DNA of 9,364 nucleotides from Candidatus Auribacterota bacterium (GTDB lineage Bacteria > Auribacterota > JAFGBW01): assembly GCA_016932965.1 (NCBI GenBank), contig JAFGBW010000069.1, positions 1 to 9,364 on the forward strand, given 5' to 3'. The notes below the pieces were generated by a model. That model was not told where the DNA came from. It was given only the letters and a program-made list of their open reading frames with translations, and ran no database searches. Shown piece by piece: positions 1 through 9,207 of the stretch. Numbering within the stretch: the first letter of the stretch is position 1; every line of letters begins with the position of its first letter. Position numbers and translations under genes: made by a program.

Positions 1-420
1 GAATACCACCAGAAAGCAGTCTGGAAGGAGAATGGCATATCACACTTTGATACTGAAGGAGGGGGTTCCGGACGGCTGATAAAACACGATGATAAGAAAC
101 AACTGATTAACGTACCCACTATTCGTCTAGCTGATTTTTTAAAAGAAAAAATTGATTTTCTAAAAATAGATATTGGGGGAGCGGAAACAGAAGTTATACA
201 GGACTGTTACGACAATCTACATAATGTAGCATATCTATTTGTGGAATATCATTCCCATCATAAAGAAAAACAAAGCCTCCATGAGATTTTAACACTTCTT
301 AACAAAGCTGGTTTCCGATATCATGTTAAAGAAGTAGTTACTGTTCCCTATCATTTTTTAAAAAGACCACTTCAAGATGAGATGGAACTGCAATTAAATA
401 TTTTTGCATTGAAAAAATAA
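1..420 (+). CDS. FkbM family methyltransferase, C-terminal part (5' end outside window)
   Basis: The frame is open from base 1 to the TAA at 418-420, giving 139 residues with no start inside the window. The protein shows the C-terminal half of the FkbM-type SAM-dependent methyltransferase fold: a VPTIRLADFL segment, then FLKIDIGGAE, then a strand reading VAYLFVEYHS, and a C-terminal LNIFALKK. Members of this family usually O-methylate sugars or polyketides, and they are common in polysaccharide loci, as here. One oddity is the core motif: the family normally reads KIDIEGAE, but here codon 175-177 is GGG, giving Gly where Glu is expected. The SAM-binding motif I lies upstream of the window and cannot be checked. 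The family call is firm, the substrate is unknown, and activity is uncertain because of the Glu-to-Gly change and the decayed gene directly downstream. Confidence 0.88.
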   Translation, partial: EYHQKAVWKENGISHFDTEGGGSGRLIKHDDKKQLINVPTIRLADFLKEKIDFLKIDIGGAETEVIQDCYDNLHNVAYLFVEYHSHHKEKQSLHEILTLLNKAGFRYHVKEVVTVPYHFLKRPLQDEMELQLNIFALKK

Positions 421-512
421 AATATGAATCATTCCTCGTCCATCCAACTAAATTCTTAAGAACTCGAATGGATCGGGGTAAGATTCTTAGACCCCATAGG
501 CAGAGTATTTAA

Positions 513-866
513 TATAAAGAAAATTATTATCGGGCAATCTATCCGAAAGCAAAAGAATTTGCCGATTATTTATTTAATCAGGGGATCATCCGTCGTTTAT
601 TCGAAAAAAATCTTTTGATTGAGACAGATTATTCCGATTTTCAAATCAATGGATATAGTTATGTCCTGAAACATATAACCCAACCTTTAATTGTTCCCTC
701 CTATGAATGGCCTAGAACCATGTTAAAAGATGCGGCACTTTTTTATATAGATTTAAACCTTGAATTACTTGATTTCAATCTAGGTCTCATTGACATTCAG
801 TTTGGGAATATGATCCATATTGATAATGCCAGACCTGTGTGGATTGATTTCGGCTCTATTGCATAA
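513..866 (+). pseudogene. Kinase-like N-terminal fragment of the decayed fusion gene
   Basis: This is the longest intact piece of the N-terminal region, open from just after the TAA at 510-512 to the TAA at 864-866. Readable family landmarks are YYRAIYPKA near the start, VPSYEWPRTMLKDAALFYID in the middle, and NARPVWIDFGSI at the end. They match the conserved pattern (S-Y-x-E-W, L-K-D-A-A-L, P-V-x-I-D) of the region preceding the methyltransferase. A TTG at 615 could start translation, but it would fall in the middle of the domain and has no clear ribosome binding site. I treat it as a remnant rather than a small gene. Confidence 0.75.
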
Positions 867-1068
867 ATAGATAATCCTGTCATAGGGCGCATAGAATTTT
901 TCAGCTATTGTATTTATCCTTTATTTATCATGTCTAAAGGCACTCATTTAAGCCGTATCAGCAGATTAATCATGAAGGAAGGCGGAATGGATGAACAGGA
1001 AATTTTTGAATTAATACGGCTAAAAATAACTTTTCCCAATAATAGAAAAGAAATGCTGCTTTTATTGC

Positions 1069-1641
1069 ATGAATAGATTGAAAAAAATACGGTTCCCTGT
1101 TATCCAGACAACCTGGTCTGATTATTATTCAGAACAGGCTTTATGCAATAAACAAATAGAAACATCCTCTGATTTGGATCCTTATAAAGTGCATATAAGA
1201 ACTCCTTTGATCAATGAAGCTATTGAGCGCTTTAAACCTAATAAAATGATTGATATTGGTTGCAATGCCGGACTTTATTCTTTGATTGCCGTAAAAAAAG
1301 GAATCCAAGTTCTGGCTTTTGATTTTGATGAGGAAGCGGTTGATAAACTTTATGCAACCGTTAAAACACATTATAAAGATCCATGCATTTCGACCGCGGT
1401 GAAGGATGTCAAGCAGGAATGCTCTCATCCGGGAGATTTAGCATTAGCTTTAGCATTGACCCATCATCTGTCCTTAAGTCAACGTTTTCCATTCTCCTTT
1501 GTAACCCAAGTGTTAAGCTCTTATACATCTAATGTTTTAATAACAGAATTCATGCCTAATGGATTGGGGACCGGAAAAACCGGTCCTGTTCCTGATCCTT
1601 TACCGGAGCATTATACACTCCAAAATTTTACTGACGCATAA
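1069..1641 (+). pseudogene. SAM methyltransferase fragment of the decayed fusion gene (190 codons open)
   Basis: The ATG at 1069 overlaps the TAG (1074-1076) that closes the preceding frame, and the frame then stays open to 1641. The protein has TTWSDYYSEQ, SAM-binding motif I as IDIGCNAGLYSL, LAFDFDEEAV for the ribose-binding acidic position, and LALALTHHLSL followed by LITEFMP, all typical of the methyltransferase half of the NoeA-like family. It lacks the usual C-terminal strands, which continue in the same frame beyond the TAA at 1639 as far as 1738. A segment before LALALALTHH also looks shortened. The ATGAATAG overlap could allow reinitiation, so a truncated protein might still be made, but no Shine-Dalgarno site is evident upstream and activity is doubtful. 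Confidence 0.7.
1568..1586. repeat. Perfect 7-bp inverted repeat with AAAAA loop
   Basis: GGACCGG (1568-1574) and CCGGTCC (1580-1586) are exact reverse complements around five A residues. The hairpin lies inside the decayed methyltransferase sequence and is not followed by a run of T, so it is not a standard intrinsic terminator. It may simply reflect the coding sequence GTGKTGP. Confidence 0.5.
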
Positions 1642-1760
1642 AAAAAATATTTTCAACATATAGAAGTAAATGATTATCCGGTCCCTGAAGGAACAAGCCG
1701 GAGAATATTTATCATCTATTGGAATAAATATAAAAAATAAATACCGGTTAATAAGTGATT

Positions 1761-2498
1761 ATGAACACTCTTTTTTATTCAAATACAAATTTCTACAATC
1801 CGGTAATTTTGAATCCTGCAACTTTTTCCCGAATTGCCTCGTGTAAAGAAATATGGAATGAAATTTTATCATTTTACGCCGATCTTGCCTCTGATGAGTA
1901 TATCAAATACCTAGAGACGTATTATCGCGAATCATTAAAACGTTTTGGCAATCATTGGTGGTATTTCGATATAGTCAACGTATTATATACCGCATCAAAA
2001 TTGTTACAGCCGAAAAATTACCTCGAAATCGGCGTGAGAAGAGGTCGGTCTGTTTGTACCGTAGCCAAAGCATGCCCTTCCGTGGATATTTATGCTTTTG
2101 ATTTATGGGTTAAGAATTATGCTGATATGGATAATCCCGGCCCTCATCTTGTCGAACAAGAATTAAAAAAAGTATCGCATTCAGGAAAAATACAATTTTA
2201 TAACGGAGACAGTCATGAAACCATTCCTGAATTTTTTTCAAAAAATCCTTCCCTTTCCTTTGATCTTATTACTGTCGATGGAGATCATTCCAAGGATGGA
2301 GCATGGAAAGATCTCCAGAACGTGATTCCCCGGCTTTCACTCGGGGGTATAATCGTTTTCGATGATATCAGCCATCCCTCCCATCCTTATTTACTTTCCG
2401 TCTGGAAACAGGCACTTGGGGATTTTCCTTTTTTAACTGGATTTGAATATACGGATCTCGGATACGGTGTCGCTTATGCAATAAGGAAATCAAATTGA
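1761..2498 (+). CDS. Class I SAM-dependent methyltransferase (Methyltransf_24-like)
   Basis: A 245-residue protein from the ATG at 1761; a GTG two codons upstream (1755) is an alternative. Neither has a strong Shine-Dalgarno site, only AAGTG just before the ATG. Motif I is NYLEIGVRRGRS (about residues 86-97), followed by IYAFDLW for the ribose-binding acidic residue. It then has ITVDGDHSKDGAWKD, with D173, D175 and H176, and GGIIVFDDIS with D201 and D202. This DGxH plus FDD arrangement is typical of the CmcI/rhamnosyl O-methyltransferase-like group, where the acidic residues are thought to bind a metal. In a locus with glycosyltransferases, O-methylation of a sugar residue is the likely role, but the substrate cannot be read from sequence. 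The stop overlaps the TTG start of the next gene (TTGA), implying coupled translation. The fold call is firm. Confidence 0.87.
   Translation: MNTLFYSNTNFYNPVILNPATFSRIASCKEIWNEILSFYADLASDEYIKYLETYYRESLKRFGNHWWYFDIVNVLYTASKLLQPKNYLEIGVRRGRSVCTVAKACPSVDIYAFDLWVKNYADMDNPGPHLVEQELKKVSHSGKIQFYNGDSHETIPEFFSKNPSLSFDLITVDGDHSKDGAWKDLQNVIPRLSLGGIIVFDDISHPSHPYLLSVWKQALGDFPFLTGFEYTDLGYGVAYAIRKSN
2483..2487 (+). promoter_or_regulatory. Shine-Dalgarno AAGGA supporting a TTG start
   Basis: AAGGA lies seven bases before the TTG at 2495. This supports TTG as the real start of the epimerase/dehydratase gene, because the GxxGxxG motif begins nine codons later and any later start would damage the Rossmann fold. 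Confidence 0.7.
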
Positions 2499-3424
2499 AA
2501 AATATAAAAATTCTAATTACTGGTGCAGGCGGCTTTTTAGGATCTCATATCAGCCAATATTTAACCGACAGAAGTTACAAAGTAGCGATCAATGGCCGTT
2601 TCTCACCAAAATATTTTAAAACAATACATGATCACAACTGGTGGAAATCCTATGGAATGACCCTTCCGGACAAACGTTTTATACATATGATAAAGGAGAT
2701 TCAGCCTCATTTTCTTGTCCACTGCGCAGGTTCGGCCTCAGTGCAACATTCAATGAAAGAACCCTACAGGGATTTTCTTGCGAATGTAAAAATGTGTGCG
2801 TTTATCTTGGAGAATCTCAGAATATATGCACCAGAATGCCATTTTATTTTTTTATCCAGCGCCGCAGTTTATGGGAATCCGCTCTCATTACCGGTAAATG
2901 AAAACACGCTTTGTAAACCAGTATCTCCTTATGGATATCATAAAATGCTTTGCGAAAATTTAATAGAGGAATATTCCAGCATCTATGGTCTCCGTACAAC
3001 CATTCTCAGAATTTTTTCTGCTTATGGAGAAAGATTGAAAAAACAGGTTATCTACGATTTATTCAAAAAAATATCTGATCCTGCCACTTTTAGAATTGAA
3101 GTTTTGGGAACAGGAAACGAAACCAGGGATTTTATCCATGCTTTGGATATTGCCAAGGCCATAGAAATCATCATTTTAAATCAATCCTGCGGTATTTTTA
3201 ATCTTGGATCCGGACAAGAAATAGAAATCCATGCGCTAGTGGAAAAAATAAAAAACATTTTACAATCTTCTTTGCCTGTCCATTATTCAAATGTTGTAAG
3301 ACAAGGGGATCCCTTAAACTGGCGGGCTGATATGAACAAAATCATGTCCATTGGTTTTACCCCTTCTATTCCTTTTGATGAGGGTTTGAAAAAATATTGC
3401 ACGTGGCTAAACACTTCATGTTAA
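2495..3424 (+). CDS. NAD(P)-dependent epimerase/dehydratase, extended SDR family
   Basis: A 309-residue protein of usual length for sugar-nucleotide epimerases and dehydratases. The Rossmann glycine motif ITGAGGFLG has G10, G13 and G16. LVHCAGSASV follows, then FLSSAAVYG with the catalytic Ser around 121-122, and PYGYHK giving the YxxxK pair Y146 and K150. Later GTGNETRDFIHALDIAKAI and IFNLGSGQEI are the substrate-side signatures common in GalE, RmlB and GDP-6-deoxyhexose reductase relatives. It probably makes or interconverts an NDP-activated sugar in the cytoplasm for the downstream glycosyltransferases. The start is TTG, overlapping the upstream TGA by four bases and supported by AAGGA. 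Its 3' end overlaps the next ATG by seven bases. The family is certain; whether it is an epimerase, dehydratase or reductase is not decidable here. Confidence 0.9.
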   Translation: MKNIKILITGAGGFLGSHISQYLTDRSYKVAINGRFSPKYFKTIHDHNWWKSYGMTLPDKRFIHMIKEIQPHFLVHCAGSASVQHSMKEPYRDFLANVKMCAFILENLRIYAPECHFIFLSSAAVYGNPLSLPVNENTLCKPVSPYGYHKMLCENLIEEYSSIYGLRTTILRIFSAYGERLKKQVIYDLFKKISDPATFRIEVLGTGNETRDFIHALDIAKAIEIIILNQSCGIFNLGSGQEIEIHALVEKIKNILQSSLPVHYSNVVRQGDPLNWRADMNKIMSIGFTPSIPFDEGLKKYCTWLNTSC

Positions 3425-5316
3425 GACAAAAAATTCGCATCGGTTTTCCCCTTATCGGTAGCAAAGAATGGATTGGTGGAATCACCTATATTGAAATGTT
3501 CGTCAAAGCAATTAATACCTTAGAACCAGAAAAAAAACCGAAATTATATTTAATCATATACGATCATTCCTTAAAAAATTATGAACTATATAAATATTTC
3601 ATCTCTTATTTTGATGGTATTCTTTTTACAGGAATGAATCTTCCAGAAGCATTAGAAGTGCTGGGCAAAAACTTTATTTATTGTTTTAATGAAGAATGTT
3701 TATATAGGCATATTGATTTCTATTATCCTGTTTTAGGAGCTACACCCGTTCCTTGTCCGTTTGCTTTTTGGATTCCGGATTTCCAACATTTTTACTATCC
3801 AGAATTATTTTCAAAAACTGAAGCAAACAGCCGGACTCTCAGTTATCAGAAAATAGCCTATGAATCAGCATACTTGGTATTAAGCAGTCAGAGCGCTCAA
3901 AATGATTTCTATAAAATATTCCCTCATCCTATGACAAAGACGCGAGTTTTACCTTTTTACGCTCTGCAGGAAAAAGAATGGTTTATTTCTAACCCTTTAG
4001 AAATATCAAAAAAATATAAGATCCCAGAAAAATATTTAATCTGCTGCAATCAATTTTGGGCACATAAAAATCACCTATGCCTTTTTAAGGCAATCAGCGA
4101 GTTAAAAAAAAATGGCATCACCATTCCTATTGTCTGCACTGGATCCACCCGTGATTACCGTAACACTCATTACATGGATGAAATAATTGAACAGATCAAA
4201 AAATTAGGAATTCACGATGAAATCTACATACTTGGAAATATTCCCAGATTAGATCAAATAGCCCTTATTCGGCAGTCCATGGCAATAATTCAACCTTCTC
4301 TCTTCGAAGGCTGGAGCACTGTAGTTGAGGATGCCAGAATTCTTGGAAAAACGATAATTCTTTCAGATTTACCAGTGCATTTAGAGCAGGCCACGCCTTA
4401 TGCAAGGTATTTCAAAAGAAATGATTATTGGGATTTAAAAAATAATCTAGAGAAATTATTGCCTGATTTATTTCCTGGCCCGGATATTGAAAAAGAGAAA
4501 TTAGCACCATCACAATCTATATCTCTTGTTAAAAATTTTGCCACTCAGTTCATGGAACTGGTTTTAGAATCAGTAAATAACACCGTAAATAAATCCGTTA
4601 TTAATTCTAGCGCCGACTTGTTTTCAAAGCATATTGTAGGGATCACATACCTTTTCGAAGAGAATGATTTTTCTTCTGTCAAGATCACACCAACGTGCAA
4701 ATCCTTGTTAAAATTTCCTCGCTATGCAGATTTTCTTATTCAATACGGGAAAGCGTTAAAAACACAAAATAAAAAATACTGGAATTATTTCTATAACCTT
4801 GGAATAAAAGTGATCGTTAAAAAAATTCACAAAAACGATGGGATTCTGCAGGAACTCGTTAATTATTTTAAAGAAAAATCCGTTTTTAATAAGGAGGAAT
4901 ATTTATTAATGCAACTTATCACTAAATTCAGCAGTAAAGATTTTCTTGTCAGATTTTATTTTAATCTCGGAAAGAGTTATGAAATAACCTACCCAAAGAA
5001 AAGCTCAACTTATTATAATAAGGCATTAAAAATTCTTAAAAAAATACAAAATAAAAATATTGTCCAACTATACAGAATGGCTTCCTGTTATATGAGAATT
5101 AATGATTTTAAAAAGACAAAGGAATTGTTCGGAAAAATTATTAATAAAACTACTATTTCTCGGCTGATTTCCGGATCTTATTTTCACCTTGGAGAGGTCG
5201 CGCTAGAAGAGAAGGACTTGGTACAGGCCAAAGAATATTTTAATAAATGCCTCGCGCTGGTACCGGATCATCAAAAAGCAAAAGAGTATATAGCTGCGAT
5301 TCAGATAAAAACTTAA
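3418..5316 (+). CDS. GT-B glycosyltransferase (GT4-like) with C-terminal TPR-like module
   Basis: The ATG at 3418 (ATGTTAA, overlapping the upstream stop) gives 632 residues; in-frame TTG 3397 or GTG 3403 would add a few. The N-terminal domain begins IRIGFPLIGSKEWIGGITY and contains FWIPDFQHFYYPE (W118). The C-terminal Rossmann half starts at CNQFWAHKNH (210-219) and carries SLFEGWSTVVED with E297 and E304, the donor-binding glutamate pair of GT4-type enzymes. About 380 residues form the catalytic part, as in stand-alone members. Another roughly 250 residues follow: a helical linker (for example near residues 432-465) and TPR-like helices ending in SGSYFHLGE (585-593) and PDHQKAKEY (616-624). 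That tail recurs in the next two proteins. It probably transfers a sugar from an NDP-sugar to a growing glycan at the cytoplasmic side; donor and acceptor are unknown. No strong Shine-Dalgarno site is visible, so coupling to the SDR gene is likely. Confidence 0.88.
   Translation: MLRQKIRIGFPLIGSKEWIGGITYIEMFVKAINTLEPEKKPKLYLIIYDHSLKNYELYKYFISYFDGILFTGMNLPEALEVLGKNFIYCFNEECLYRHIDFYYPVLGATPVPCPFAFWIPDFQHFYYPELFSKTEANSRTLSYQKIAYESAYLVLSSQSAQNDFYKIFPHPMTKTRVLPFYALQEKEWFISNPLEISKKYKIPEKYLICCNQFWAHKNHLCLFKAISELKKNGITIPIVCTGSTRDYRNTHYMDEIIEQIKKLGIHDEIYILGNIPRLDQIALIRQSMAIIQPSLFEGWSTVVEDARILGKTIILSDLPVHLEQATPYARYFKRNDYWDLKNNLEKLLPDLFPGPDIEKEKLAPSQSISLVKNFATQFMELVLESVNNTVNKSVINSSADLFSKHIVGITYLFEENDFSSVKITPTCKSLLKFPRYADFLIQYGKALKTQNKKYWNYFYNLGIKVIVKKIHKNDGILQELVNYFKEKSVFNKEEYLLMQLITKFSSKDFLVRFYFNLGKSYEITYPKKSSTYYNKALKILKKIQNKNIVQLYRMASCYMRINDFKKTKELFGKIINKTTISRLISGSYFHLGEVALEEKDLVQAKEYFNKCLALVPDHQKAKEYIAAIQIKT
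5068..5289 (+). repeat. Shared TPR-like module, copy 1 (glycosyltransferase, residues 551-624)
   Basis: This stretch encodes LYRMASCYM..., then SGSYFHLGEVALEE, then PDHQKAKEY. It aligns without gaps over 74 residues with 6131-6352 and 8200-8421. Against copy 3 about 31 of 74 residues are identical by eye. The 34-residue distance between LYR and SGSYFHLG and the alternating small and aromatic positions fit a pair of TPR helix hairpins. Its role is probably protein-protein docking; that is inference. Confidence 0.8.
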
Positions 5317-5337
5317 ATCATCATTAAATAGTTATAC

Positions 5338-5343
5338 GGAGAA
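5338..5343 (+). promoter_or_regulatory. Shine-Dalgarno GGAGAA before the ATG at 5348
   Basis: GGAGAA ends four bases before the ATG at 5348, in the 31-base gap after the glycosyltransferase gene, and supports that start. No promoter or terminator is evident in the gap, so the gene probably reads from the same transcript. Confidence 0.6.
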
Positions 5344-5347
5344 TCTA

Positions 5348-6376
5348 ATGAATGCTAATCCAAATATCATTATAGAGCCGTGCTGGAATGATTATATGAA
5401 TTGGCTGTCCTTTGCCAATGCCGGCATGCTTTCTTCCAGAATCAACGTGGATTGCATGAATTATGCAATCCAACATCTGCCCAGCCAGACGCCGATCATT
5501 GAAATCGGTTCATTTTGCGGGCTTTCCACTAATTTGATCAGTTATCTCAAGGAAAAACACGGGGTAAAAAATCCATTGGTCACCTGTGACAAGTGGATTT
5601 TTGAAGGATCCGAAACAACCATTTCTCTGGGAGATTCTAAAACCATCACGCATAAGGAATACCGGGAATTCATTAAGGAAAGTTATATCCGGAATATCAA
5701 CATGTTCAGCCGGTATGATCTTCCATATACCATTGAGGTTTTCTCTGATGAGTTCTTTAACCTTTGGAAAAACAATACCCAGAGTCAGGATATCCTGGGC
5801 AGGGAAATCCAGTTGGGTGGAAAAATTTCCTTTTGTTACATTGACGGCAACCATAGTTACAAATGTGCTAAACGAGATTTCGAAAATTGCGATCACTATC
5901 TGGAAAAAGGAGGGTTCATCCTGTTCGATGATTCTGCGGATGATTCGAATTGGGGAGTCAATCTCTTAGTCAAAGAAATAGTTAATGAAGGAAAATATAT
6001 CCTGTTAGATAATACGTTAAATTACTTCTTTCAAAAAAAAGGCGGAAAGAATGAGCCGGCTATTCTTTCATTTCAAAAAACCAAGGAAAATCAGAAGAAA
6101 GAAAAAATCCGGCATGATATCTGCCTTCACTATTACCAGCTAGGATCGCTTCACCAGAAAAACAATCAACTGAACGAAGCAAAAAAATATTTTAGCCTGG
6201 CTTTCAAGCATTCTCCGGCTCCTAATATTGAAGCCGGATATTTCTTCCATCTGGCAGAAATAGCTCTGGCTGAGAAAAAAACCGCCAAGGCCAAAAAGCA
6301 TTTAAAGAAATGCCTTTCTTTGATTCCGGATCATCAAAAAGCAAAGGAACATTTAAATCAATTAAATCAGATTTAG
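5348..6376 (+). CDS. Class I SAM-dependent methyltransferase with C-terminal TPR-like module
   Basis: A 342-residue protein in two parts. Residues 1 to about 235 are a methyltransferase of the same type as the one at 1761-2498: motif I is PIIEIGSFCGLSTNLI (EIGSFCG from residue 52), followed by CYIDGNHSYKCAKRDF (D166, H169) and GGFILFDDSADD (D194, D195). The DGxH plus FDD acidic residues suggest metal-assisted O-methylation, probably of a glycan. After a charged linker (about 238-258) the last 80 residues are TPR-like, with AGYFFHLAEIAL (from 296) and PDHQKAKEH (327-335) at the same spacing as in the neighbouring glycosyltransferase. The ATG has a good Shine-Dalgarno site. The catalytic part alone is of usual family length, so the TPR tail looks like an added module. 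The substrate is not known. Confidence 0.87.
   Translation: MNANPNIIIEPCWNDYMNWLSFANAGMLSSRINVDCMNYAIQHLPSQTPIIEIGSFCGLSTNLISYLKEKHGVKNPLVTCDKWIFEGSETTISLGDSKTITHKEYREFIKESYIRNINMFSRYDLPYTIEVFSDEFFNLWKNNTQSQDILGREIQLGGKISFCYIDGNHSYKCAKRDFENCDHYLEKGGFILFDDSADDSNWGVNLLVKEIVNEGKYILLDNTLNYFFQKKGGKNEPAILSFQKTKENQKKEKIRHDICLHYYQLGSLHQKNNQLNEAKKYFSLAFKHSPAPNIEAGYFFHLAEIALAEKKTAKAKKHLKKCLSLIPDHQKAKEHLNQLNQI
6131..6352 (+). repeat. Shared TPR-like module, copy 2 (methyltransferase, residues 262-335)
   Basis: Encodes YYQLGSLHQ..., AGYFFHLAEIAL and PDHQKAKEH, aligned without gaps to copies 1 and 3. At the DNA level its end (6287-6352) matches 5224-5289 of the upstream glycosyltransferase gene at 51 of 66 bases, including a 20-base identical run (6326-6345 against 5263-5282). 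This points to a fairly recent duplication or to gene conversion between the two tails. Confidence 0.78.
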
Positions 6377-6432
6377 CTTCTATTGCTGATCAAAAAACAG
6401 TCTGATAACAAATCTAATATCATTCTCATTCA

Positions 6433-6445
6433 GCCTTTAAAAGGC
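6433..6445. repeat. Short near-perfect palindrome GCCTTT-A-AAAGGC
   Basis: A 6-1-6 dyad lies in the 110-base gap before the fusion gene, and its right arm overlaps the ribosome binding site of the mini-ORF at 6455. It might be an operator or a weak hairpin affecting translation, or it may be chance. It is the only clear dyad in this gap. Confidence 0.3.
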
Positions 6446-6454
6446 GGAAATAAT

Positions 6455-6490
6455 ATGAACGTTCCCCAATATTTAAGCAAATATCCATGA
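6455..6490 (+). CDS. Possible 11-residue leader ORF coupled to the fusion gene
   Basis: ATG at 6455 opens MNVPQYLSKYP and ends at TGA 6488-6490, overlapping the ATG of the 906-residue gene in the ATGA arrangement typical of translational coupling. It has a purine-rich ribosome binding site, AAGGCGGA (6441-6448), six bases upstream. The large downstream gene has none of its own: the bases before its ATG read AAGCAAATATCC. Ribosomes may therefore load at the mini-ORF and reinitiate. The same frame is open back to the preceding gene's TAG at 6374, so it could instead be the tail of a lost gene. No known leader peptide is recognised. Confidence 0.35.
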   Translation: MNVPQYLSKYP

Positions 6491-9207
6491 AATCCATCAT
6501 CTTTATTGAACCTTATGCTTCCCTGGGCGGGCATATGTATAAAAATCTCCATTGTCTGGAAAAAAAGATCAGGGAACAGGACATTTCCTACCAATTCATT
6601 GCAGAAAAAAATATCCGGCTACCTTCCGGAAGACATATCCTCCCTGCTCTTAGGAGTTCCATTCAATTACAAGAAGAACCGGACAACGTACAAACGGAAA
6701 TCCGGAAAAACGAATACCGCGATCTCATCGCCTCCCGCTCCCATACCATGTTTGTTTTTTTAACCGCTTTTCAAAATGAACTGCAGATTGTTCATCAATT
6801 TCTCCAGGACCCGTCTTTTCGAGAAAGTCTGATTAAAAAAGAAAATAAACTTGTTTTCCATATTACCACCCCTTCATTCCACCTTTTCAATATCATTACA
6901 GCCTGTAAAAAAGAATTGTCTGAACTTCAAAACAATCTTTTTTTCAGTTTCTTTTCCAGACTCCAAACCTGGGTTATAAAAAACCAATGGGAAACTCCAA
7001 ATGCCTTTACCCTGTTTGCCAGCGGTTATGAAGATTTGAGATACGCAAACCAATCCCGTCATATGAAAGAAAAATGGCTCTCCTGTCTTGGCCGGTTTCA
7101 AACCGTAAAATGTCCTCACTTGATCCTTGAAGGATTTCAAAAATTCAAAAAAAATCCTTTTCATGTTCATTTTTATCCCATCAATGAGCTAAACTTCGGG
7201 CTCTATTCTGCTTTCATGAAAAACAAAAAATCTTCTGACAGGATCGTCTGTCAGCCCATGAAGCCTAAAGAATACCAAAACGCAATCTTTCAAACCAAAG
7301 TCGGTCTTCTCCCTTATGACTCCCGACACTATTCTATCCAGGCCTCAGGCCCTCTTGAAGAATACCTTTTTGCCGGTGTTCCTGTGATCGTGCCAAAAGA
7401 AAGCTGGCTTTCCTATTTTGCTGAAAAATTTGATGCAGGTTATGTCAATTACGATGAAACTGTTCCAAAGGATTTTGAAACTCAACTAGAAAAATTATTG
7501 AACAACTATGATCATTATAAACAAAAATCCCTTCTGGCCGCTGACAAGATTTTTCAGGAACGGAACACCGGTTGTTTTGTAAAAATTCTTCAAAACATAG
7601 GCGAAAATAAAGTCTCCGGCATTGAACTTTCACCGGAAAAAGCTCAACAGTTAAAACCCATTCTAAACAAAGGCTGCTGCCGTCTGTATACTCTCTTTGC
7701 AGAAGAATGCTTCCGTAAAGGAGAATCACAAAGAGCCCATCTTTTCCTGAAAAAAGCATTGTCCTATGACCAAAATGACTGGAAAACACGTTGTGTTATA
7801 AACGAAATGCAACATCAGGATAAGAGCATTCTTTTTTTAAATAAGTTGATAAACTCTCATCTTATTCATAACCCTTATGATTTTATTGAAGAATGGAAAA
7901 AAATAAATTCAACAAATATTGGCCAAATACAGACCGAAATCTTGAATCCGGTTCTTGAACAATGGAAAGATTTTATTTCTCTCCAGGACATCCCCTTCAT
8001 GTTAGACAGGCTTAAGCATAAAATAATTTTATCCATGCAAGATAGACTCTTAACTTGCGTCAACAATTTTAGATCCCTTCCTGAAGCCTTGATAAAAACA
8101 GGGGAATGGATGGAAAAGCATCATCAAAAAGATTGGAAAAAATTTTACCAAAAAGCAGTCCTTCTTTTAAAAAAGAAAAAAACCAAGTCTGATTTAGACT
8201 TATACCGTCTGGCATCTGCCCTTCAAAAAATGGGTAAAGACAATGAATCAAATTTGTGGTTTAACCGGGTCATCCGTAATTCAGACAATACCCAGCTCAA
8301 ATCAGGAAGCTATTTCCACCTGGGAAATGGAGCGATGGAAAAAATGCGTCTTAAAAAAGCAGTTGATTTTTTCCTTGATTGTCTAAGTTGCAATCCCTTT
8401 CATCAAAAAGCCAAAGAATACCTGCAAACTTCTGTTATGGAATTAAGAAAACTCCTTGAGGGTCTGAAAAAAGGACGCCATGCAAAAGATCTCCTGAATT
8501 ACATCCAGCGGGCATCTGAATTGAATCTCCTCATCCCCCCTGAGATCAAAAACGATGAACTCTATTTTGCCATCCAAAAACTTTCCAAAGAATCAAAGCT
8601 TTCACATGTCCTTGAAATCGGTTCCTCGTCAGGCGGGGGCAGCACAGAAGCTTTTGTTAACGGGCTTCGGGAGAATCCATCGCACCCGCAATTGTATTGC
8701 ATGGAAGTTTCAAAGGTCCGGTTTCAGGAACTCTCAAACCGGTACAAAACAGAATCTTTTGTCCATTGCCTTCATGCATCTTCAGTTCCGGTTTTGAAAT
8801 TTCCTTCTGAAGAAAAGGTCAAAGCGTTTTATTATTCCCTGTCAAAAAATGAATCCGTTTATCCCCTGGACAAGATTCTGGGCTGGCTGAAACAGGACAT
8901 CGAATATGTCCGGCAATCAAAAGTGTCTGATAACGGCATCCAGCGGATCAAAGAAGAAAATCATATTGAATATTTTGACATGGTATTGATTGACGGAAGC
9001 GAATTCCTGGGAGAGGCTGAATTGGAGGAAGTGTACGGCGCCGGCATCATTTTACTCGACGATATCAATGGCTATAAAAATTACAAAAACCGCCAGCGTC
9101 TTCTAAACGACCCGCAATATACCCTTCTGGCTGAAAACCGAAAAGTCAGGAACGGATATGCAATTTTTAAAAGAAAAAACGTCTCTATTTCCTCCGTGAT
9201 GACATAA
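6487..9207 (+). CDS. Glycosyltransferase-TPR-methyltransferase fusion protein
   Basis: A 906-residue protein with three parts. Residues 1 to about 370 resemble a GT-B glycosyltransferase: the N-terminus is IIFIEPYASLGGHMYKNL and the donor-side motif is ASGPLEEYLFAGVPVIV (286-302). Residues about 395-660 are helical and TPR-like: one unit lies near 400-436, and the shared module sits at 572-645 with SGSYFHLGN (606-614) and HQKAKEY (639-645). Residues about 660-906 form a class I methyltransferase: IPPEIKNDELYFAIQ, motif I VLEIGSSSGGGSTEAF (LEIG from 709), MVLIDGSEF (D836) and IILLDDINGYKNY (D858, D859), ending NGYAIFKRKN. This domain also occurs on its own or in other fusions in polysaccharide loci. 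The fusion suggests that sugar addition and O-methylation happen in one protein, the methyl group possibly capping or marking the added residue. The start follows an 11-codon mini-ORF through ATGA. The domain order is firm; the sugar and acceptor are unknown. Confidence 0.86.
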   Translation: MKSIIFIEPYASLGGHMYKNLHCLEKKIREQDISYQFIAEKNIRLPSGRHILPALRSSIQLQEEPDNVQTEIRKNEYRDLIASRSHTMFVFLTAFQNELQIVHQFLQDPSFRESLIKKENKLVFHITTPSFHLFNIITACKKELSELQNNLFFSFFSRLQTWVIKNQWETPNAFTLFASGYEDLRYANQSRHMKEKWLSCLGRFQTVKCPHLILEGFQKFKKNPFHVHFYPINELNFGLYSAFMKNKKSSDRIVCQPMKPKEYQNAIFQTKVGLLPYDSRHYSIQASGPLEEYLFAGVPVIVPKESWLSYFAEKFDAGYVNYDETVPKDFETQLEKLLNNYDHYKQKSLLAADKIFQERNTGCFVKILQNIGENKVSGIELSPEKAQQLKPILNKGCCRLYTLFAEECFRKGESQRAHLFLKKALSYDQNDWKTRCVINEMQHQDKSILFLNKLINSHLIHNPYDFIEEWKKINSTNIGQIQTEILNPVLEQWKDFISLQDIPFMLDRLKHKIILSMQDRLLTCVNNFRSLPEALIKTGEWMEKHHQKDWKKFYQKAVLLLKKKKTKSDLDLYRLASALQKMGKDNESNLWFNRVIRNSDNTQLKSGSYFHLGNGAMEKMRLKKAVDFFLDCLSCNPFHQKAKEYLQTSVMELRKLLEGLKKGRHAKDLLNYIQRASELNLLIPPEIKNDELYFAIQKLSKESKLSHVLEIGSSSGGGSTEAFVNGLRENPSHPQLYCMEVSKVRFQELSNRYKTESFVHCLHASSVPVLKFPSEEKVKAFYYSLSKNESVYPLDKILGWLKQDIEYVRQSKVSDNGIQRIKEENHIEYFDMVLIDGSEFLGEAELEEVYGAGIILLDDINGYKNYKNRQRLLNDPQYTLLAENRKVRNGYAIFKRKNVSISSVMT
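8200..8421 (+). repeat. Shared TPR-like module, copy 3 (fusion protein, residues 572-645)
   Basis: Encodes LYRLASALQ..., SGSYFHLGNGAMEK and FHQKAKEY, gap-free against copies 1 and 2. The similarity to copy 1 extends about 19 residues further upstream (FYQKAVLLLKKK against YYNKALKILKKI). Unlike the other two copies it is internal: a methyltransferase domain follows it. Confidence 0.78.

Follow-up and report, generated by a model that had tools for sequence, protein, structure and literature searches.

A two-histidine TPR module on glycosyltransferases and methyltransferases as a candidate flagellin-docking domain

Three adjacent enzyme genes of an Auribacterota genome encode copies of one 74-residue TPR module, and relatives of this module are found on glycosyltransferases, methyltransferases, and other enzymes far beyond this genome. 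With a probability of roughly 60%, and judging from sequence and gene context, we propose that the module is a flagellin-docking TPR common to the glycosyltransferases and tailoring methyltransferases of cytoplasmic flagellin glycosylation. Its two repeats would form a docking domain that grips not-yet-exported flagellin (or a complex of flagellin with a chaperone) in the cytoplasm, and each of the enzymes acting in turn in a flagellin O-glycosylation system would carry it. Glycosyltransferases would capture the flagellin acceptor through the module, and methyltransferases would return via the module to the growing, pseudaminic-acid-containing glycan on this acceptor and tailor it. What we infer in this scheme is that the module binds flagellin directly, that the enzymes act in this order, and that the glycan is methylated.

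Little is understood of how a soluble bacterial glycosyltransferase selects its protein acceptor, or of how the right protein later receives further sugars and methyl groups. A signature module on both glycosyltransferases and tailoring enzymes enables a direct test of whether all of them recognize the protein. It could also be used as a marker when uncultured phyla are searched for flagellin-glycosylation enzymes from many catalytic families, and possibly as a tag for steering glycosylation enzymes to a chosen protein.

Three module copies in one glycan locus

The stretch of DNA that we analyzed (9,364 nucleotides, hereafter called the window) carries the following features:

1..420, + strand: FkbM methyltransferase, 3' end (Methyltransf_21 and fkbM_fam)
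1755..2498, + strand: Methyltransf_24 methyltransferase without the module
2495..3424, + strand: NAD-dependent sugar epimerase/dehydratase of the same glycan cluster (Pfam Epimerase, E 5e-43)
3418..5316, + strand: GT4-type glycosyltransferase, 639 aa, with a C-terminal TPR tail (Pfam Glycos_transf_1, E 5.5e-14)
5068..5289, + strand: putative docking module copy 1 (TPR unit b, TPR unit c, and cap), C-terminus of the GT4 protein
5348..6376, + strand: Methyltransf_24 class I SAM methyltransferase, 342 aa, with a C-terminal TPR tail (Pfam Methyltransf_24, E 8.3e-14)
6131..6352, + strand: putative docking module copy 2, C-terminus of the Methyltransf_24 protein
6487..9207, + strand: 906-aa protein with a probable GT-B-like N-terminal half, the module, and a probable methyltransferase C-terminal end (sub-threshold Glycos_transf_1, methyltransferase motifs)
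8200..8421, + strand: putative docking module copy 3, internal in the 906-aa protein (pLDDT 83-93)

Pairwise alignment of the translations joins the three 74-residue stretches (window positions 5068-5289, 6131-6352, and 8200-8421) without any gap, and the initial annotation, which had reported them, was correct in both coordinates and alignment. Pairwise identity is 35-42% (28/74 between glycosyltransferase and methyltransferase, 31/74 between glycosyltransferase and fusion protein, 26/74 between methyltransferase and fusion protein), with 18 of the 74 columns identical across all three copies. Their likeness is far above chance because local BLOSUM62 scores of 160, 152, and 120 lie 22-29 SD above those of shuffled sequences (means of ca. 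24, SD ca. 4.5). The 74 residues comprise two TPR units (b and c) and the first turns of a capping helix, and are preceded by more TPR-like helices with weaker conservation. An extended module of 115 residues was considered and rejected since the preceding TPR is common to near relatives yet not to copies of different phyla, which leaves the 74 residues as the common core.

The three proteins had been described as enzymes of different catalytic type, and this is solid for the GT4 and Methyltransf_24 labels but weak for those of the 906-aa fusion. The N-terminal half of the latter matches Glycos_transf_1 at E=0.006, i.e., below the cut-off, while its C-terminal 255 aa gave no significant Pfam match, methyltransferase families included, and compare weakly with other methyltransferases at the profile level. 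Methyltransferase motifs (LEIGSSSGG, VLIDGSE, and ILLDDI) are readable in the sequence. Because the full-length model is poor (mean pLDDT 49, good only in the module at 83-93), the assignment of the two catalytic ends rests on these motifs and the sub-threshold matches. Across 709 columns, the protein shares 23.6% identity with a module protein from a pseudaminate-type locus of Aminicenantes. Pfam TPR matches are present in all three window proteins, though weak in the third, and an alternative TTG start at 3397 would add 7 residues to the GT4 protein. Further upstream, the reading frames of window positions 421-1755 are broken, and the segments 615-866 and 1069-1641 resemble the halves of one frameshifted methyltransferase; it looks NoeA-like by eye and may reflect either a pseudogene or errors of a noisy contig end.

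A distinct TPR family with a conserved groove

The fold of the module is that of an ordinary TPR, but its sequence family is distinct from generic TPRs. TPRs are defined here as 34-residue helix-turn-helix repeats with consensus at positions 4, 7, 8, 11, 20, 24, 27, and 32, and membership in the Pfam TPR clan is apparent from domain matches (TPR_2 and TPR_8 above cut-off in the first two window proteins), from the consensus positions, most of which are kept, and from an all-helical model. In this model, the C-terminal 160 residues of the glycosyltransferase form a confident TPR solenoid with a pLDDT of ca. 98 in the module. A PDB fold search returned ordinary TPR neighbors of the module model, and no flagellin glycosyltransferase was among the neighbors listed.

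The HQKAKEY and SGSYFHLG signatures had been proposed to be more specific than a TPR consensus, and indeed a profile built from the three copies scores 38-77 bits on other strong copies, whereas 20 generic TPR loci from this genome never exceed 17.6 bits; with the generic TPR_8 model, some of these loci outscore the window modules. With TPR_8 itself, a search of this genome matches 85 places on dozens of contigs and favors other proteins. TPR proteins at large without enrichment for the signatures or for glycan enzymes, the outcome that had been set as a test against the proposal, are thus not what the profile search brought back. Copies from two more distant Auribacterota families reach 21-32 bits with the three-copy profile and 40-45 bits with a 23-row profile, but a generic TPR protein of a flagellin-negative genome (G006) reaches 25 and 37 bits, respectively, so that membership of the 40-45-bit copies leans on the two-histidine signature. 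They were counted as modules because both signature histidines are present and because each lies at the C-terminus of a glycosyltransferase or a similar protein. The G006 match was rejected since this generic protein of tandem TPRs lacks the two histidines, and the weak matches L084-L086 were also taken as generic TPR.

In a TPR, the concave face is lined by positions 2, 5, 9, 12, 13, 33, and 34, which are variable across TPRs in general. In the module, the frozen groove residues are Y1, S5, H39, E42, and H67 (module numbering). Repeat b has Y at position 5 in 32/32 copies and S at position 9 in 30/32, while repeat c has G at position 2, F/Y at 5 (32/32), H at 6 (32/32), E at 9, and H at 34 (32/32). 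Both histidines are therefore invariant among the 32 aligned copies, though the second is not absolute since an Omnitrophota copy found after this alignment (G122) keeps H39 but carries F in place of H67. Expressed as relative entropy, positions 5 and 9 have 4.5 and 3.1 bits in repeat b and 3.5 and 2.2 bits in repeat c, compared to 1.7 and 0.6 bits in 42 generic TPR units. Other non-scaffold positions show no excess conservation (1.05-1.5 bits on average in the module versus 1.3 in the generic units). Kinship of the copies inflates conservation but should raise all positions and not the groove alone. This frozen groove is the pattern to be expected if the copies bind a common ligand.

These results bear on whether the module is a TPR passenger that was inherited and multiplied through gene duplication, with no ligand common to its copies. 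Its fold is ordinary, as such a passenger would have it, and copies 1 and 2 share 78-80% DNA identity over 61-68 bases at their 3' ends, which suggests local duplication or conversion. However, a tree of 32 copies is star-like across phyla, the window's three copies form no clade in it and are not mutual closest relatives, and groove positions are conserved when other surface positions are not; we therefore consider a mere passenger quite improbable. On the same tree, we rejected a recent tandem origin of the three copies, whose nearest relatives were found on other contigs or in other genomes.

Enzyme partners, pseudaminic acid genes, and flagellin

The source genome (3.1 Mb in 300 contigs, the window being contig C129) encodes nine module copies, as recovered by a search with one of them, on four contigs, i.e., three on C129, three on C107, two on C179, and one on C243. 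Candidatus Auribacterota RS_1_24 of the same order has ca. six, clustered on one contig. A scan of one collection revealed full-length distant copies in Aminicenantes, Omnitrophota, three Nitrospinaceae/Nitrospina MAGs, bacterium GBS-1, and a MAG labeled Proteobacteria, and the module is thus found in at least five phyla. These distant relatives are biased to G[VAS][YFC]FHLGE[IVM] copies because the scan used a five-row alignment (a 14-row alignment was too diverse). A plasmid scan with one module copy gave no match.

Catalytic partners of the module according to Pfam are GT2, GT4, GT9, Methyltransf_24, FkbM (Methyltransf_21), Methyltransf_11, and radical SAM. Its position is mostly C-terminal, with exceptions such as a GT4 protein interrupted by the module (module residues 164-238, GT domain from residue 330), a protein built as GT2-module-GT2-module, or the G122 protein of Omnitrophota in which the module lies N-terminal to the Methyltransf_24 domain. 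Attachment of profile matches to varied catalytic domains, which the initial annotation had named within its check, was borne out and recurs in other phyla. Its idea of a common docking tag within one glycan locus gains from the specific profile, these varied domains, and the frozen groove, with docking itself being what we infer. A Nitrospinaceae MAG encodes two module-bearing radical-SAM proteins (L078:12027-13439 and 13495-14994) with a SPASM-like cysteine motif, seen by eye, between the parts. In the same-order genome RS_1_24, a stand-alone protein of 174 aa (L046:6762-7283) has a diverged copy of the module but lacks any catalytic domain and could be an adaptor.

More tentatively, and short of what we would call probable, the cross-phylum two-histidine module may be an address tag that recruits a complete and interchangeable enzyme set to one protein acceptor, comprising several glycosyltransferase families, sugar methyltransferases, and possibly radical-SAM enzymes. 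If true, flagellin glycosylation would be a protein-anchored assembly line, similar to carrier-protein systems, in which each enzyme recognizes the carrier and not just the sugar.

The modules might instead tie the enzymes together or to a common scaffold protein in a glycan-assembly metabolon that does not bind flagellin. Such an arrangement would suit the presence of several module enzymes per locus (and nine in the source genome), the role of TPRs as general scaffolds, and the existence of proteins with two fused module units. However, some flagellated genomes carry one copy only, so that copy-copy pairing is not the general role, and no conserved non-enzymatic scaffold was found beside module genes. 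A metabolon also does not predict co-occurrence with flagellin (see below), and we regard it as unlikely. Docking either to one partner or to each other had been envisaged at first; one partner, flagellin or a flagellin complex, is now preferred, and mutual docking is less favored.

The window's first 561 bases match the last 562 bases of C243 (L039 15184-15745) with 94.5% identity, and the match extends to the contig end on both sides. Between the two versions, the FkbM motif reads IDIGGAE versus IDIEGAR, with each side having its own unlikely change; because even this conserved motif differs, noisy ends of one sequence are favored over two genes. C243 and the window probably represent one locus split by assembly noise, the alternative being a repeat. 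On C243, the full FkbM gene is a module-FkbM fusion beside pseudaminic-acid genes encoding PseB (530 bits, cut-off 408), PseI (452 bits, cut-off 340), and PseF (292 bits, cut-off 206). A PseG-like protein just under cut-off, a formyltransferase-like protein, and a PIG-L deacetylase are also encoded there, followed by the module-FkbM gene. Flagellar genes of C243 include FliG (by Pfam) as well as FliF, FliE, FlgC, and FlgB (by sequence), with the basal-body genes located ca. 13 kb away from the glycan genes. No flagellin gene was found in the window or on C243, and the flagellins of this genome are encoded on other contigs (C72 and C211). In the Aminicenantes locus, NeuB-family, PseF-like, and PIG-L-like genes lie directly upstream of two strong module genes, and in the same-order genome RS_1_24, NeuB and cytidylyltransferase genes lie among the module genes. 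The module is thus encoded together with a nonulosonic-acid pathway on C243 (linked to the window by the end overlap) and in the Aminicenantes locus. Pseudaminic acid also occurs in capsules and O-antigens. Homologous proteins with no strong family match (L039:6786-7733 and L076:6644-7507; 25% identity, E 2e-14) are encoded beside pseudaminate-type genes in two phyla.

All distant module genomes encode flagellin (7/7) and NeuB (7/7). Among Auribacterota, flagellin is present in 7/44 genomes, and 6/6 module genomes are among those seven, an association with a hypergeometric p of 1e-6 by genome and 4e-4 by family (4/17 families each) in a sample whose module genomes are few and related. A strong NeuB match was detected in 14 Auribacterota genomes, but the module is restricted to flagellin-positive ones; it thus tracks flagellin more closely than NeuB in this phylum, and NeuB/pseudaminate alone was rejected as its correlate. 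One same-order, flagellin-positive genome (77%-complete) has no module copy. Omnitrophota have flagellin in 10/384 genomes and in 2/2 module genomes (15 candidates scored per genome), though only one of these two is independent (chance 0.023) because the other was the search center. Linkage is clear on a single contig of the proteobacterial MAG, which carries the genes for the module protein, a NeuB-family synthase, flagellin, FliS, and other flagellar proteins within ca. 46 kb. The glycan island of this MAG also encodes an OGT-like GT41 protein with many TPRs (L107:4773-7313) close to the flagellin gene. Separately, the same-order genome RS_1_24 encodes a protein that looks GT2-like and has generic TPRs directly 3' of fliS (L117:11780-12982), and its module enzymes lie on another contig.

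Chaperone genes would likewise co-occur with flagellin, and the ligand of the module could be a protein acceptor other than flagellin or an export factor of the flagellum (FliS, FliD, a pilin, or a surface-layer protein). The FlaF chaperone, e.g., has the same flagellins as its cytoplasmic binding partners (PMC7591256). However, the known TPR-glycosyltransferase precedents bind flagellin itself, and we would give a different ligand a rather low chance.

Comparison with known systems

A flagellin-binding module of cytoplasmic O-glycosylation, carried here by tailoring methyltransferases as well, is the most economical interpretation. FlmG of Caulobacter crescentus is a soluble flagellin O-glycosyltransferase whose TPR part binds flagellin, and like the module enzymes it combines TPR and glycosyltransferase in a pseudaminic acid setting; unlike the module, its TPR part is N-terminal, spans ca. 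313 aa, and belongs to a single glycosyltransferase without being common to methyltransferases (PMC7591256). In Maf-1, a C-terminal TPR confers flagellin acceptor and site specificity (Unay et al. 2024, cited in PMC13317340). Maf-1 resembles the module system in its C-terminal TPR and in nonulosonic-acid transfer but differs in having a Maf catalytic domain and in being one enzyme instead of an enzyme set. The module can be likened to FlmG and Maf-1 by architecture and context, i.e., a TPR fused to a glycosyltransferase, a nonulosonic-acid pathway, and flagellin-bearing genomes.

The TPR of Listeria GmaR has been proposed to recognize flagellin (PMC9638930). Both GmaR and TPR-bearing GT2 proteins of clostridial flagellar islands have a GT domain followed by TPRs and function in flagellin modification, but GmaR has an additional antirepressor role, and no common signature is described for their TPRs (PMC9638930, PMC13317340). 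Flagellin glycosylation islands can also include FkbM and other methyltransferases or GT-methyltransferase fusions and, like the locus described here, mix glycosyltransferases, sugar-synthesis genes, and methyltransferases; a common docking module is not mentioned in the portions available of the respective sources (PMC4875605, PMC5207246). Eukaryotic O-GlcNAc transferase and SPINDLY use a TPR superhelix for acceptor recognition, similar to the role proposed for the module, and their TPR domains are among its closest solved folds and sequence matches, but their superhelices are long and their targets are eukaryotic proteins.

In the open-licence papers searched, we found no description of a short signature TPR module across glycosyltransferase families, methyltransferases, and radical-SAM enzymes of at least five phyla, which is weak evidence. 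The initial annotation had suggested an undescribed docking domain; what stands of this is a distinct signature family, whereas the fold is a standard TPR and acceptor binding by TPRs is known from FlmG and Maf-1 and proposed for GmaR. Fold and acceptor-binding principle are thus familiar, and the new part is one signature module spread over a whole enzyme set.
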